A stretch of DNA of 21,764 nucleotides from a virus, in the IMG/VR virus record IMGVR_UViG_3300036835_000068, positions 1 through 21,764 of that record; one strand, 5' to 3'. The notes under the pieces were generated by a model. It was given only the letters and a program-made list of their open reading frames with translations. It was not told the origin of the DNA and made no database searches. Below are positions 3,143 to 13,658 of this stretch, piece by piece. Both the position numbers and the translations under genes were made by a program. Each line of letters begins with the position of its first letter. Positions within the stretch are counted from its first letter, which is position 1.

Positions 3143-3922
3143 CTATCCCTCGTCCGCCTCCGCGAAGATCTGCGAGCGGTCGAGATCCATCCAGCGGGCG
3201 ACCTGCTGGAGGTAGCGGCCAACCTTGAGCAGGTAGGCCGGGTCGGCGATGACGACGTGACGCGAGTAGGTGCCGTCCTCGCGCAGGTGAACGCCCCACA
3301 GCTCATCGATCTCGGGCATCGGCACCTCGTTGTCGTCGCCGTCGAGGTAGAAGTCGGCGCCTGCATAGAGGCCGAGCTGGAGCGCGGTCTCAGGCCAGAT
3401 CCCGCTGTTCGAGGTCTTGTAGTCGAGCAGCGTCCGGATGCGCTTTGGCTGGCCACGCTTGGCCAGGGCCTTGGCGATCAGGTCCGTGGTGCCGGCGTAC
3501 TTGTAGCGGCGGCTGAACAGCCGGACCTCGATCAGCTCAGCCTCAACCTCGTAGTCGTCCTGGAAGCTCGCAGCCGCCTGGGCGTAGCCGCGCATCTCTT
3601 CCGGCACGTCTTCGAGCTCGCCGCCAGCGACCAGCTTCTCGGCGTAGCCGTGCACGGTGGTCCCGCGGATCTGGGCGCTCCGCACGGTGGAGTAGGGCGA
3701 CTTGACGATGGCCTTGAAACGCTCGGAAGGCTTCATCGTCACCAGGTCGTCCCAGTTGTCGAGGACGTAGCCCGCGGCCTGCTCGGCGTACCACTTGTTC
3801 AGAGCGGGCCTCGGCAGCATGTCCTTGATGCCGGAGACGCTGATGACCGGCTGGCTGTCGAGTTCATAGGAGTGGCCGCGCCCGCGGTTGATCCGGCGCG
3901 TACGGAGCCTGACGTCGCTCAA
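3143..3922 (-). CDS. RecB/Cas4-like PD-(D/E)XK exonuclease
   Basis: This 259-residue nuclease should produce the single strands used by the RecT protein. Visible motifs in order are RGTTVHG (87-93, the Arg-Gly...His motif), acidic residues E129 and E132, GTTDLI (D147), LLDYKTS (D167 and K169, the D-x-K catalytic pair) and QLGLYA (182-187, the Q-x3-Y motif). This is the full order expected for RecB-like phage exonucleases. Four cysteines typical of many Cas4 proteins are absent, so an iron-sulfur cluster is unlikely. The start codon overlaps the stop of the upstream HTH gene as ATGA at 3919-3922, so the two are translationally coupled. A 61-base gap separates it from the RecT gene. Confidence 0.85.
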   Translation of the reverse strand: MSDVRLRTRRINRGRGHSYELDSQPVISVSGIKDMLPRPALNKWYAEQAAGYVLDNWDDLVTMKPSERFKAIVKSPYSTVRSAQIRGTTVHGYAEKLVAGGELEDVPEEMRGYAQAAASFQDDYEVEAELIEVRLFSRRYKYAGTTDLIAKALAKRGQPKRIRTLLDYKTSNSGIWPETALQLGLYAGADFYLDGDDNEVPMPEIDELWGVHLREDGTYSRHVVIADPAYLLKVGRYLQQVARWMDLDRSQIFAEADEG

Positions 3923-4149
3923 GAGGGAACCTCATCCGGAACGGGGTAGGTGATCGAATCGAGCGGGACTCCGAGCTCGTCGGCGATGCGCCGCACGACG
4001 TCCGGCTCCGGCTGCTTGCGGGCGCCGCTCTCGATCTGCGAAAGGTAGGCCGGGGTGATCGCCACGCGGGCGGCCAGGTCCACCTGCTTGATGCCGAGGG
4101 CTTTGCGAAGGCTTGCAATCGAAGAGCCGTTCGCTTTGCGTTCCGCCAT
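3919..4149 (-). CDS. XRE-family HTH regulator (Cro-like position)
   Basis: A single helix-turn-helix domain fills this 76-residue protein: IASLRKALGIKQVDLAARVA, ITPAYLSQIESGARKQPEPD, VVRRIADELGVPLDSI. I chose the ATG at 4149 over the GTG at 4161 because a predicted -10 box (4158-4163) overlaps the GTG and would place transcription start at or next to the ATG. No ribosome site precedes either codon, which suggests a leaderless mRNA. It is the first gene of the early operon and runs straight into the exonuclease. Its place is like lambda cro, facing another HTH gene. Whether it represses or activates cannot be seen. It has no dimerisation or protease domain. Confidence 0.85.
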   Translation of the reverse strand: MAERKANGSSIASLRKALGIKQVDLAARVAITPAYLSQIESGARKQPEPDVVRRIADELGVPLDSITYPVPDEVPS

Positions 4150-4157
4150 GAACGTGA

Positions 4158-4186
4158 ACACTAGCTAACTACTGCTAACTCTGCAA
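4158..4186 (-). promoter_or_regulatory. Predicted early promoter, minus strand
   Basis: Reading on the minus strand there is TTGCAG (4186-4181), a 17-bp spacer and TAGTGT (4163-4158), followed eight bases later by the ATG at 4149. The spacer is exactly filled by one of the 17-bp operator elements. The -35 box matches the consensus only in TTG; the -10 box fits TAnnnT. Transcription from here would be leaderless. Confidence 0.55.
4164..4180 (-). promoter_or_regulatory. Operator element 1 (AGTTAGC direct repeat)
   Basis: On the minus strand this 17-bp element reads AGTTAGCAGTAGTTAGC, two identical heptamers starting 10 bp apart (one helical turn). It lies between the -35 and -10 boxes of the early promoter, where a bound protein would block RNA polymerase. 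Confidence 0.65.
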
Positions 4187-4238
4187 CCTGGCACACCGTG
4201 AACAGCCAGGACCAGGTAACAAGATCATATATGTCATG

Positions 4239-4255
4239 AGTTAGCGCAGGTTATC
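4239..4255 (+). promoter_or_regulatory. Operator element 2 (AGTTAGC direct repeat)
   Basis: The plus strand reads AGTTAGCGCAGGTTATC, with the same 7+3+7 layout as the other two elements and one degenerate half. It lies just upstream of the predicted plus-strand -35 box, a place suited to activation or cooperative binding. Confidence 0.6.
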
Positions 4256-4261
4256 TGAGGT

Positions 4262-4291
4262 TTGACTTAGCAGCAGTTAGCGGGCGATGAT
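4262..4291 (+). promoter_or_regulatory. Predicted promoter of the plus-strand HTH gene
   Basis: TTGACT (4262-4267) matches five of six -35 consensus bases; GATGAT (4286-4291) is a fair -10 box at an 18-bp spacing. The ATG at 4298 follows six bases later with no ribosome site, so the transcript is probably leaderless like its divergent partner. Confidence 0.55.
4265..4281 (+). promoter_or_regulatory. Operator element 3 (AGTTAGC direct repeat)
   Basis: The plus strand reads ACTTAGCAGCAGTTAGC, matching element 1 at 15 of 17 positions. It overlaps the -35 box and spacer of the plus-strand promoter, so binding here would repress that gene, possibly by autoregulation. Confidence 0.65.
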
Positions 4292-4297
4292 GCGTCG

Positions 4298-4618
4298 ATG
4301 GCTTCCGGTTCCCGCGTCGGGACCATGATCAGGCTGCGCCGCCAGGAACTTGGCATGACCCAGGTGCAGCTTGCCGGGCTAGTCGGCGTCCACGTCTCAT
4401 CGGTGACGCTCTGGGAGAAGGGCAAGCACTTCCCAGATCGCCACCAGGGCAAGCTGGAGACCGTGCTCGGCATCAGTCTCGGCGACGAGCAGGACGGGGA
4501 GGTCTATACAGATCCCGCCGAAGCGGCCATCTGGGCTCTGGACCGCTACAGCCCTGAGGAGCGGCGCAGAATTATCAGCGAGCTCCAGCGCACCCGCGAG
4601 CAGGCCGCTGACCAGTAA
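4298..4618 (+). CDS. XRE-family HTH regulator (repressor-like position)
   Basis: The 106-residue protein has an N-terminal helix-turn-helix (about 10-62): MIRLRRQELGMTQVQLAGLV, then HVSSVTLWEKG as the recognition helix region. A helical C-terminal extension follows (AAIWALDRYSPEERRRIISE) of a kind common in actinobacterial HTH proteins and probably used for dimerisation. It is the first gene of a two-gene plus-strand unit facing the early operon, the position of a lambda-type lysogeny repressor. There is no S24 peptidase domain, so RecA-driven self-cleavage is not expected. An internal ATG at 4325 is a possible alternative start, but 4298 agrees with the predicted leaderless promoter. The repressor role is inferred from position only. 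Confidence 0.85.
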   Translation: MASGSRVGTMIRLRRQELGMTQVQLAGLVGVHVSSVTLWEKGKHFPDRHQGKLETVLGISLGDEQDGEVYTDPAEAAIWALDRYSPEERRRIISELQRTREQAADQ

Positions 4619-4649: not shown

Positions 4650-5342
4650 GTGGGCCAGCACGCCTCAAGGCAGTCACTATCTGCACGGGTCAGGGAACTA
4701 GAAGCGATCGTTGAAGATCTGCGTGAGCACGTCCGGCAGGCAACGGAAGCCGACCGGATCATCCGCCGGGCTCAGCTCGGCATCCAGCCGCCCAGCCCGC
4801 CGCAGCACCCGGCGCACCGCCGTGACCGGCACGGCCTGCGTCTCATCTCCGGCGGCCTGGCCGCATTCGCTGCGTGGCTGGTGGCCTCACGCTCTCGCAG
4901 GCTGATCACGATGGCGGCGGCCACGATGCTGGCCGTCCCCGCCGCAGCCTCCCCCTCGATCATCACGGCGCACCCCGCGGGTGTGCCGCCAGCGGCAGCG
5001 GGAGTGGTCCATCACAAGCACCATGCCCACCAGCAGGTCCCCCTCGCGGAGAAGCCTCAGCCCCGTAAACGCCGGAAGAAGACAGCCAGCACAGGCACGA
5101 TCACGGGCGATGACAGCCCGCAGCCGTCAGAATCGCCGGTTCCCGATCCGCAGGCAGGCAGCCCCGTCCCTCTGCCGGTCGATCCGCCTGTCCCGCTGCC
5201 CACCGGGCCACTGCCCACCGTCAGCCCGTCGCCTCCCATCGACGCCGGGAGCCCGGGTCCGCTCCCTCCTGGTGGAGGAGGCGTCCCCGGGCTCCCGGGT
5301 GGTGCTGTCGTCAGCGCGGGCAGCCTGACGCTGGCGGCCTAG
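4650..5342 (+). CDS. Coiled-coil, membrane, proline-rich protein
   Basis: The GTG start at 4650 follows an AGGGAGGG ribosome site, 31 bases after the HTH gene, so the two form one operon. The 230-residue protein has a predicted coiled coil (about 10-42), a hydrophobic segment (63-80), a basic turn SRSRR, a second hydrophobic segment (84-106), a His-rich patch (HHKHHAH, 121-127), a basic stretch (PRKRRKK) and then a long Pro/Ser/Val/Gly tail, ending in a short hydrophobic stretch. This suggests an inner-membrane protein with a long extended domain. I recognise no family. Expressed with the putative repressor, it is a candidate lysogenic-conversion or superinfection-exclusion protein; this is a guess from context. 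Its TAG stop overlaps the stop of the convergent gene in a shared CTAG. Confidence 0.65.
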   Translation: MGQHASRQSLSARVRELEAIVEDLREHVRQATEADRIIRRAQLGIQPPSPPQHPAHRRDRHGLRLISGGLAAFAAWLVASRSRRLITMAAATMLAVPAAASPSIITAHPAGVPPAAAGVVHHKHHAHQQVPLAEKPQPRKRRKKTASTGTITGDDSPQPSESPVPDPQAGSPVPLPVDPPVPLPTGPLPTVSPSPPIDAGSPGPLPPGGGGVPGLPGGAVVSAGSLTLAA

Positions 5343-11300: not shown

Positions 11301-13658
11301 TCAGCCTCTCTGTGCGTCCAGGCGCCGCTCCAGCCGCCGCACGTTGGCGAGGAGCTGCGCTGAGAATGAGGGATCGGCCGCGCCGGGGTCCTGGGGGTAG
11401 CCGATGGTGGGCACAGACCAGATTGGCGGCGTCGCCATCGGGTCGATCGTCAGGTCCACCTGGGAGATGATGTCGGTCACTGTGTCGCCGTTGCGGGTCT
11501 CGACGGTCACTCTGTCGCCGAGGAAGTAGTCCCGGCCGAAGACCAGCGCCGGGATGTCGATGGTCGTGATCGAGAGCTGCGGTGTCGCTGCGCCCTGTGC
11601 GATGGCGTCCTGGCCGGCCTGTGTGACCTGCGTGGCATCGGTGCTGGAGGTCTGATCGACGTACTGCTCGACGCGGGTCCACCAGTCCGAGCTCCCGTCG
11701 CCGGTCACCTCTGTGAAGGCGCCCGAGGCACCCTGCACGAGCGCGTTGGTGACCAGCGGGTCGGCCAGGGCGAAGGAGATCGAGACCAGGTTGCCGAGCC
11801 GCTCGCTGAAGTAGGCGTAGCCGGACAAGTCTCTTGGCACGTAAGTGTCAAAGACGAGACCACCGCTGCCGTTGTCGGTGACCTGGACACCCATCGGGCC
11901 GCCTGTGGCTACCAGCGTGCGGATAATGTCCATCAGGTTGAGATCGACGCCATCGGTGAACTGGGCGCTGTAGGAGACCGTGCCGCCGCGCCCGGCGTCG
12001 GTGGCGACCGACAGGATCGGCACCTTGCGCCCGCTGATGGCTCCCGGGCCGGCATTCACGTTGACGTAGTGCTTGATCGCCGTCTCCAGCGGGACGCTGG
12101 TCACCGCGTCAGCTCCGGCCGCCGACTGGCCAGACCAGGCTGCGGCCGGGTTGGGGAAAGCGATCCTGTTGGCGATCAGGGCCTCGTAGGTGGCACCAGA
12201 GATGATGATGTAGGCACCTTCGAGAACCGCCGCGGCGAAGGTCGAGCCTGGTAGCGCGTACTGGTAGCCGGGACTCTCACACTTGCCACCGAACCTGAAG
12301 TAGCCGCCCCAGTCGATCGTGACCCCGAAATCGGCGCTGCTCACCATGTCCCAGAGCTGGTCAGAGTACGGGACAGCGATAGCCCAGGAGCCGACCCCGT
12401 TGTAGTAGAGGGTGGCATCCAGCGTCACCTCGTCGATCGGCCCGAGACTGCTCAGAGCGCCGTCGTGGCCCTCGATAGAGACATACAGGCTCGGGACGAA
12501 CGGCTGGACAGGCTGCGCGGGCACATCTGGCCCGGCATCGGCCAGAACCACAGCCGTGATCGTCCTGACCGCTTCCAGCCTGGCAGCCAGCAGGCCGCTG
12601 GCGGTGATTCCGGCCGTGATGGGCAGGCTGACGTCCAGCACGGGCGCGGGCCGGCTGATACCCGCCGTGATCGCCGCGGTGATCTGCTGGCTGACGCCGG
12701 CCGGCAAGCTGGGCAGCCCGGCTGTGATCGCTGCGGTAACCGGCCGGGAAACATCGAGCTCGCGAGACAGCGAAGGCGTGCCTGCGGTGATTGCCGCGGT
12801 GATTCCGAGGCTGACGTCAATCTCAGGAGCAGGGAGTTCGAGACCCGCGGTAATGGCAACAGAGATCTGCTGCGAAACATCAGCCGGAGGGCTGGCCAGC
12901 TTGGCGGTTATACCTGCGGTAATTGTGCTGGAAACAGCAGCTTCAGCCGTCAGGAGCGGTGTGCCGGCGGTCACCGTAGCGGTAATCGTCTCGCTGACGT
13001 CAAGGCTGAAGGTAGAGCCTCCTGCTGCGGCCTTAACCTCGACGGCGACCGCGCCCCAGTCATCGGAAGTGTCGCCGGACCAGGTAAGGGTTATAGACCC
13101 ACCTGCGGCCTTATCCGCCTGGCCAGCATTGCCAGCGCCATTACTGTTGCTGAAGTTGGCAACCCACCGCGATGTGGCCGGGTTCGTCAGGGTATCCGAC
13201 CCGATCGACGCGACCCCGGCGACCATGTTCCCGCTGGTCGTACCCGTAACGGTGACGTTGGGGCCGGTGCTGCTGCCCGACTTGGTGACCGCCGTGCCGA
13301 ACGGGGCAGAGGTGTCGGCGCCCGAATAGGAGACCGACCCGGCCTCCCATGTCCGCGATCCCGCGCTGCCGGTCTCGGAGACGACGATCGTGTGAGCGCC
13401 GCTGGCCTGGTTCGCGATGCCGAACAGCAGCGTTTCGCCAGCGTTCCCCCCGGCGTTATTGACGCTGCCCAGCAACGTCATCGCGTTGCCGTCGCAGGTC
13501 GCCGAGACCGTCCCGTTGGAGCCGCCGGCGTGGCCGAAGCCCACGCCGACCACAATCGCCACGCCGGACGCAACCGCAGTATGCGTCCAGGTCACCGACG
13601 TGCCGGTACCCGTCTGCCCGCTCGCAGACGGGCCTACGGCGTCTTCCGCGACCGCCAC
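11301..13658 (-). CDS. Gp37-like tail protein with N-terminal beta domain and repeats
   Basis: The GTG at 13658 follows GGGAGGAGG at seven bases. The 785-residue protein has three parts. Residues 1-213 are Ser/Thr/Gly-rich beta structure (TWTHTAVASGVAIVVGVGF, TWSGDTSDDWGAVAVEVKA), probably a carbohydrate-binding or Ig-like fold. Residues 219-372 are eight tandem repeats of about 20 residues built on DVSxxITAAITAG. Residues 388-785 match the ReqiPepy6 Gp37-like family: GVGSWAIAVPYSD, DIIRTLVATGGPMGVQVTD, GYAYFSERLGNLVSISFA and FGRDYFLGDRVTVETRNGDT. The C-terminal part is the tail-tip core of actinophages; the N-terminal half looks like an added host-contact arm, longer than I would expect for the family. 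Confidence 0.82.
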   Translation of the reverse strand: MAVAEDAVGPSASGQTGTGTSVTWTHTAVASGVAIVVGVGFGHAGGSNGTVSATCDGNAMTLLGSVNNAGGNAGETLLFGIANQASGAHTIVVSETGSAGSRTWEAGSVSYSGADTSAPFGTAVTKSGSSTGPNVTVTGTTSGNMVAGVASIGSDTLTNPATSRWVANFSNSNGAGNAGQADKAAGGSITLTWSGDTSDDWGAVAVEVKAAAGGSTFSLDVSETITATVTAGTPLLTAEAAVSSTITAGITAKLASPPADVSQQISVAITAGLELPAPEIDVSLGITAAITAGTPSLSRELDVSRPVTAAITAGLPSLPAGVSQQITAAITAGISRPAPVLDVSLPITAGITASGLLAARLEAVRTITAVVLADAGPDVPAQPVQPFVPSLYVSIEGHDGALSSLGPIDEVTLDATLYYNGVGSWAIAVPYSDQLWDMVSSADFGVTIDWGGYFRFGGKCESPGYQYALPGSTFAAAVLEGAYIIISGATYEALIANRIAFPNPAAAWSGQSAAGADAVTSVPLETAIKHYVNVNAGPGAISGRKVPILSVATDAGRGGTVSYSAQFTDGVDLNLMDIIRTLVATGGPMGVQVTDNGSGGLVFDTYVPRDLSGYAYFSERLGNLVSISFALADPLVTNALVQGASGAFTEVTGDGSSDWWTRVEQYVDQTSSTDATQVTQAGQDAIAQGAATPQLSITTIDIPALVFGRDYFLGDRVTVETRNGDTVTDIISQVDLTIDPMATPPIWSVPTIGYPQDPGAADPSFSAQLLANVRRLERRLDAQRG
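12543..13004 (-). repeat. Eight ~20-residue repeats within the Gp37-like gene
   Basis: The encoded units begin at V221, V242, V261, V282, V303, V322, V343 and V364, with spacings of 21, 19, 21, 21, 19, 21 and 21 residues. The consensus is DVSxxITAAITAGxPxLxxx. The DNA copies have diverged, so this is an old repeat kept by selection rather than a recent duplication. Confidence 0.85.

Follow-up and report, generated by a model that had tools for sequence, protein, structure and literature searches.

How are two divergent HTH genes of a virus controlled when the 148-bp gap between them carries direct repeats on both strands? The window analysed here is the whole of a viral record from IMG/VR, 21,764 bases in length, which may itself be a fragment.

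The divergent HTH genes and their promoters

The features of the locus are listed below.

3919..4149, minus strand: cro-like gene, encoding a 76 aa XRE/HTH_3 protein; it heads the lytic (minus) strand before the exonuclease and RecT genes
4158..4163, minus strand: −10 sequence TAGTGT of the cro promoter, 8 nt before ATG 4149, consistent with a leaderless reading
4164-4180, minus strand: direct-repeat candidate operator AGTTAGC-AGT-AGTTAGC (AGTTAGCAGTAGTTAGC), exact; it makes up the whole 17-bp spacer of the cro promoter
4181..4186, minus strand: −35 sequence TTGCAG of the cro promoter
4239-4255, plus strand: third, degenerate element AGTTAGC-GCA-GGTTATC (AGTTAGCGCAGGTTATC), two mismatches, 26 bp upstream of the 4265-4281 element
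4262..4291, plus strand: putative repressor promoter TTGACT-18-GATGAT, 6 nt before ATG 4298
4265-4281, plus strand: mirrored direct-repeat candidate operator ACTTAGC-AGC-AGTTAGC (ACTTAGCAGCAGTTAGC), one mismatch, in the repressor promoter
4298..4618, plus strand: divergent HTH_3 gene, 106 aa, at the position of an immunity repressor (putative role)

The 76 aa protein of the minus strand was assigned to HTH_3 by Pfam (E=3e-14), and its modelled structure was a helical HTH fold (pLDDT 76). By tblastn, it matched HTH or Cro genes that adjoin immunity repressors in mycobacteriophages and in Thermobifida phage P1312. Exonuclease and RecT-like genes follow downstream on the same strand, with cro as the head of these early lytic genes. 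A GTG at 4161, upstream of ATG 4149, is a possible alternative start.

The 106 aa protein of the plus strand was also assigned to HTH_3 (E=2e-8) and gave weak PHROG matches to transcriptional repressors. No close relative of it was found by homology searches, including a plasmid search. The single-sequence AlphaFold model of this protein was too poor to use (pLDDT 46) and was set aside. The position of its gene agrees with that of the repressor in relatives, and suggests that the gene encodes the repressor. Thus, the locus has the make-up of an actinophage cassette, in which a Cro-homologous HTH gene diverges from an HTH gene at the repressor position. On the 3' side of the putative repressor gene, an ORF of 230 aa (4650-5342, plus strand) encodes a protein with a hydrophobic segment and a tail rich in proline; neither Pfam nor PHROG gave a match to it.

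An Rfam search of the window returned no RNA family, and the 21.7-kb contig showed neither a recognisable integrase or excisionase gene nor an att site. Because an integrase is missing from this contig, we only infer a temperate lifestyle. The region probably controls the choice between lysis and lysogeny in a phage whose hosts are high-GC Gram-positive bacteria.

The two promoters diverge back-to-back, as do the genes, and the face-to-face arrangement given by an earlier, sequence-only reading of this DNA was incorrect. The same reading had placed one element exactly in the −35/−10 spacer of the minus promoter and another over the −35 and spacer of the plus promoter, and both placements held: the former lies in TTGCAG-17-TAGTGT, and the 4265-4281 element overlaps TTGACT and its spacer. 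For the plus promoter, a promoter scan found one match against 0.1 expected. No Shine-Dalgarno-like 4-mer occurs within 20 nt of either start, in agreement with the claim that ribosome sites are absent there, and the transcripts of both genes are probably leaderless.

Direct repeats in the intergenic gap

In each of the three elements, the half-sites are asymmetric heptamers that start 10 bp apart, and no inverted partner was found inside any element of the window. These elements had been described as three matched 17-bp elements. Their positions and strands were as described, but they are unequal, with the second heptamer of the third degenerated to GGTTATC. By eye, this third element (4239-4255) lies at the place where relatives carry TGACCTGCGGAAAC. 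That mid-gap block recurs in many relatives' cro-repressor gaps (e.g. L178 and L150); the window has TAACCTGCGCTAAC at the block, with GCTAAC in place of GGAAAC.

We scanned the contig for AGTTAGC-N3-AGTTAGC, as had been suggested, and found no site beyond these three with up to two mismatches; a control scan with the reversed pattern gave 0 matches. The single heptamer is not enriched over chance, with 25 occurrences of AGTTAGC in the whole window at up to one mismatch against 26.4 expected; five of the 25 fall in the 148-bp gap. A perfect 7-bp direct repeat at a lag of 5-30 arose in 14% of dinucleotide shuffles of the gap, and a second such element within one mismatch in 0 of 3000. Along the real window, the same repeat test was positive elsewhere only near 2258 and near 12655, in each case within a long ORF. 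Separately, two minus-strand copies of AGTTACC, at a distance of 11 bp, occur in the short intergenic stretch that separates the RecT-like ORF from its neighbour (1955-1979, GGTAACTAGCCGGTAACTAGTTAGT). Each copy is one base off AGTTAGC, and may belong to an auxiliary operator.

The layout and its half-site words in relatives

Few or no close relatives of the minus protein, the exonuclease or the helicase of the window were found in IMG/VR and genome collections. Relatives were therefore gathered through Cro homology and an alignment-based scan of IMG/VR. The Cro homologues came from M. abscessus prophages, ThulaThula, dwieneke, Gordonia phages Lton, Cashline, Madeline and Murp, Thermobifida P1312, and Girr. 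They are mostly labelled HTH or Cro, and diverge from an annotated or apparent immunity repressor. Examples of the cro promoters (−35, spacer, −10) are as follows.

Window: TTGCAG-AGTTAGCAGTAGTTAGC-TAGTGT
Lton: TTGACG-TGTTCCCTATAGTTCCTC-TACTGT
GD11-1: TTGACA-TGTTCCTGAGTGTTCCGA-TAGATT
ThulaThula: TTGACA-CTGTTCCTGTTCGTTCC-TACTGT
L174: TTGACA-CGTTCCCATGTGTTCCC-TACAGT
P1312: TTGACA-TCAGCAGGCAACAGCAGG-CAACAT
Gordonia GMA1: TTGACC-TACGCACATCTACGCAG-TACCTT

When the spacers of 21 actinophage cro promoters were pooled, identity at lag 10 was 105/148 (71%) against 28% in shuffles (p<0.0005, a value that overstates independence, as most of the related promoters share ancestry). Lag 11 was also raised (46%), and lags 4-9 and 12 were not significant. 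In an unanchored analysis of the last 60 bp at 18 loci, lag 10 reached z=8.4, with at least 5/6 identity in 15 of the 18; smaller peaks were seen at lags 15, 22 and 23 (z=3.2 to 4.5). The distance from the −10 to the ATG in relatives is 4-8 nt, mostly 6-8, with 7 the usual value. Lag 11 fits better than lag 10 in prophiGD12-2, GD05-1 and L153, and prophi102-2 does not fit the layout. This layout, in which a word recurs in the same direction after about one helical turn within the −35/−10 spacer, is common within the family and is not peculiar to this phage.

A mirrored copy at the repressor end was observed in GD11-1, Lton, L178, Girr and the window with 0-1 mismatches of 12, and was weaker in others. 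The combined chi-square for mirrored copies was 107.7 on 32 df, compared to 46.8 for same-strand copies. P1312 is an exception, with both copies on one strand. Low-GC Cro relatives (e.g. L163 and L168-L171) are mostly without a clear lag-10 repeat or have uninformative AT-rich repeats. In L189, also a low-GC Cro relative, TGCAAT is repeated at lag 10 upstream of 2983; this possible exception suggests that the layout may extend beyond actinophages.

The words of the half-sites change as the layout stays. GTTCC-N5-GTTCC is the form in many relatives, and GGCAAC-N4-GGCAAC, CTACGCA-N3-CTACGCA and TTTGCA/TTCGCA were found in P1312, GMA1 and Girr, respectively. Across eight half-site classes, the match of left and right half-sites within a phage was 41/56 against 18.8 by permutation (P=0.00012, inflated since the classes were picked after the pattern had been seen). 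An exact scan of IMG/VR for AGTTAGC-N3-AGTTAGC found at least 119 stretches. The high-GC cases that were inspected adjoin integrase genes or lie in unrelated contexts, none of them in a cro promoter, and hence the architecture is the signature of the family and the literal motif is not. Among these matches, tandem AGTTAGC repeats with a 10-bp period lie by integrase genes in other high-GC phages (L079 6067-6093, L117 1884-1920 and L125 1555-1581), and might serve there as arm-type sites for integrase or excisionase. One low-GC viral contig (L064 2676-6009) carries nine exact copies of AGTTAGC-N3-AGTTAGC, spread over a few kilobases.

The half-site words were compared with the recognition helix of Cro. 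It reads YLSNIEAGRK in the GTTCC class, with the N invariant in that alignment, and YLSQIESGAR in the window, where Q replaces this N and the half-site is GTTAGC. In P1312, YLSRVENG occurs with GTTGC (other-strand reading), and in GMA1 and T46-1, YLSDLE occurs with TACGCA. We take the variable residue (N/Q) to be equivalent to Gln33 of the 434 repressor. Within the GTTCC class, Cro proteins have a mean identity of 50% (minimum 41%), and the repressor HTH domains diverge more (mean 36%, minimum 21%); the word GTTCC is kept across very different repressors. This comparison favours Cro as a reader of the half-sites, and the resemblance of the HTH of the minus protein to SinR in sequence and fold agrees with it. 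Both Cro and the repressor differ between Girr and GMA1, so that the repressor also stays a candidate for the main reader.

A candidate switch, its alternatives and known systems

We propose, with a probability of roughly 0.8, that the locus is a Cro/repressor switch with leaderless promoters, whose direct-repeat operators are bound head-to-tail and block RNA polymerase. The minus HTH gene would be cro, the first of the early lytic operon, and the plus HTH gene the repressor, each under its own leaderless promoter bearing a near-identical pair of AGTTAGC half-sites. Because the half-sites start 10 bp apart, two HTH units could bind head-to-tail along one face of the helix, each in one of two consecutive major grooves that lie between the −35 and the −10. 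By covering the spacer, they would keep RNA polymerase off the cro promoter. An occupied cro-side element (4164-4180) would turn the lytic genes off, and an occupied mirrored element (4265-4281), perhaps an occupied third one too, would turn the repressor off. Binding by Cro and/or the repressor and the resulting repression are predicted from the arrangement of the DNA. The head-to-tail geometry is likewise predicted, and would go against the usual preference of dimeric HTH proteins of this fold for inverted repeats.

This preference speaks for another reading, in which an ordinary HTH dimer binds an imperfect inverted repeat whose better half is the heptamer, and the direct repeat represents two such dimer sites that overlap. 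SinR-like proteins favour inverted repeats (PMC3163267), and in several phages of the GTTCC class (Lton, Cashline and dwieneke) GGAAC occurs 13-15 bp downstream, at the start codon. However, the window is without an inverted partner, and the distance to the inverted partner varies among phages, whereas the direct spacing of 10 bp is constant. We regard overlapping dimer sites as unlikely, although they are the alternative to be taken most seriously.

Sites for a promoter regulator of the excisionase (RDF) type, such as Apl of 186 or Cox of P2, would leave the neighbouring HTH proteins without a part at the repeats. Apl sites, too, repeat directly with a spacing of 10-11 bp and lie between early promoters (PMC7498355), and the 10-bp AGTTAGC tandem repeats of L079, L117 and L125 adjoin integrase genes. 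Yet searches of the contig gave no integrase, excisionase or att site, the genes on either side belong to HTH_3, two promoters hold the elements in precise register, and the half-site words vary together with the recognition helix of Cro; we consider an RDF improbable here. It is more improbable still, to the point of being hardly credible, that the repeats are inert or a chance by-product of low-complexity intergenic sequence. A lone perfect repeat is common enough in shuffles to be expected by chance, but a second matching copy never appeared in them, and relatives show the same layout built from different words.

Beyond this locus, head-to-tail binding may define an undescribed and widespread class of actinophage operators, a suggestion to which we give slightly less than even odds. 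In this class, a small XRE Cro (and the repressor) would bind head-to-tail on two direct half-sites one turn apart within the spacer, the partner promoter would carry a mirrored copy, and immunity specificity would diverge by concerted change of both half-sites and recognition helix. A search of open-access papers found no title or abstract describing this operator form in actinophages. If the proposal is true, a family of proteins of 70-80 aa offers natural operator variants, each at a fixed place in the promoter, and direct-repeat reading and the evolution of superinfection immunity become directly testable. Operators would be predictable from actinophage sequences, and would supply compact, orthogonal promoter/regulator pairs for high-GC hosts.

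A similar arrangement is that of genes 33/34 of mycobacteriophage BPs, where gp33 is the repressor, OR occupies the −35/−10 spacer of PR, and ORep lies near the repressor gene (PMC4557955). As in the window, repressor and cro-like genes diverge, one operator is within the spacer of the lytic promoter and a second is near the repressor gene. In contrast, the half-sites of BPs are 12-bp palindromes spaced 5 or 8 bp apart, one of them highly degenerate, whereas those of the window are short asymmetric words in direct orientation, 10 bp apart. SinR of Bacillus subtilis has the same HTH type in sequence and fold, and reads a heptamer, GTTCTYT, that begins with GTT as do GTTAGC and GTTCCC; the orientation of its heptamers varies widely, binding to inverted pairs is 10-fold better than to tandem ones, and a tandem pair is no better than a single site (PMC3163267).

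Direct repeats are read by several phage regulators. P2 C, a small HTH repressor, uses two of them in the early promoter, and the reading of a direct repeat by an HTH dimer with two-fold symmetry has been called puzzling, with few structures available (PMC4752584). The P2 C repeats are 8 bp long, 22 bp apart from centre to centre and flank the −10, unlike repeats 10 bp apart within the spacer, and a PDB search returned no sequence match to P2 C. The direct repeats bound by Apl of 186 recur once per helical turn (10-11 bp) in the region between the early promoters (PMC7498355), and the window repeats are likewise 10 bp apart between early promoters. Apl, however, is an RDF with a second role at att, and its seven operators lie between face-to-face promoters; the window has HTH_3 proteins, paired elements and divergent promoters. 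The lambda CII site, TTGC-N6-TTGC, is also a direct repeat with starts 10 bp apart, but CII activates transcription from repeats on either side of the −35, whereas the window sites fill the spacer and are expected to act in repression. CII is cited as a direct-repeat binder (PMC4752584).

None of these systems agrees with the window in full. The compact switch with an unusual operator form, as the sequence-only reading had it, stands in its direct-repeat architecture, which is kept in relatives, but not as a rarity: the form is common in the family, direct-repeat operators have precedents in P2 C, Apl and CII, and an operator within the PR spacer has one in BPs.
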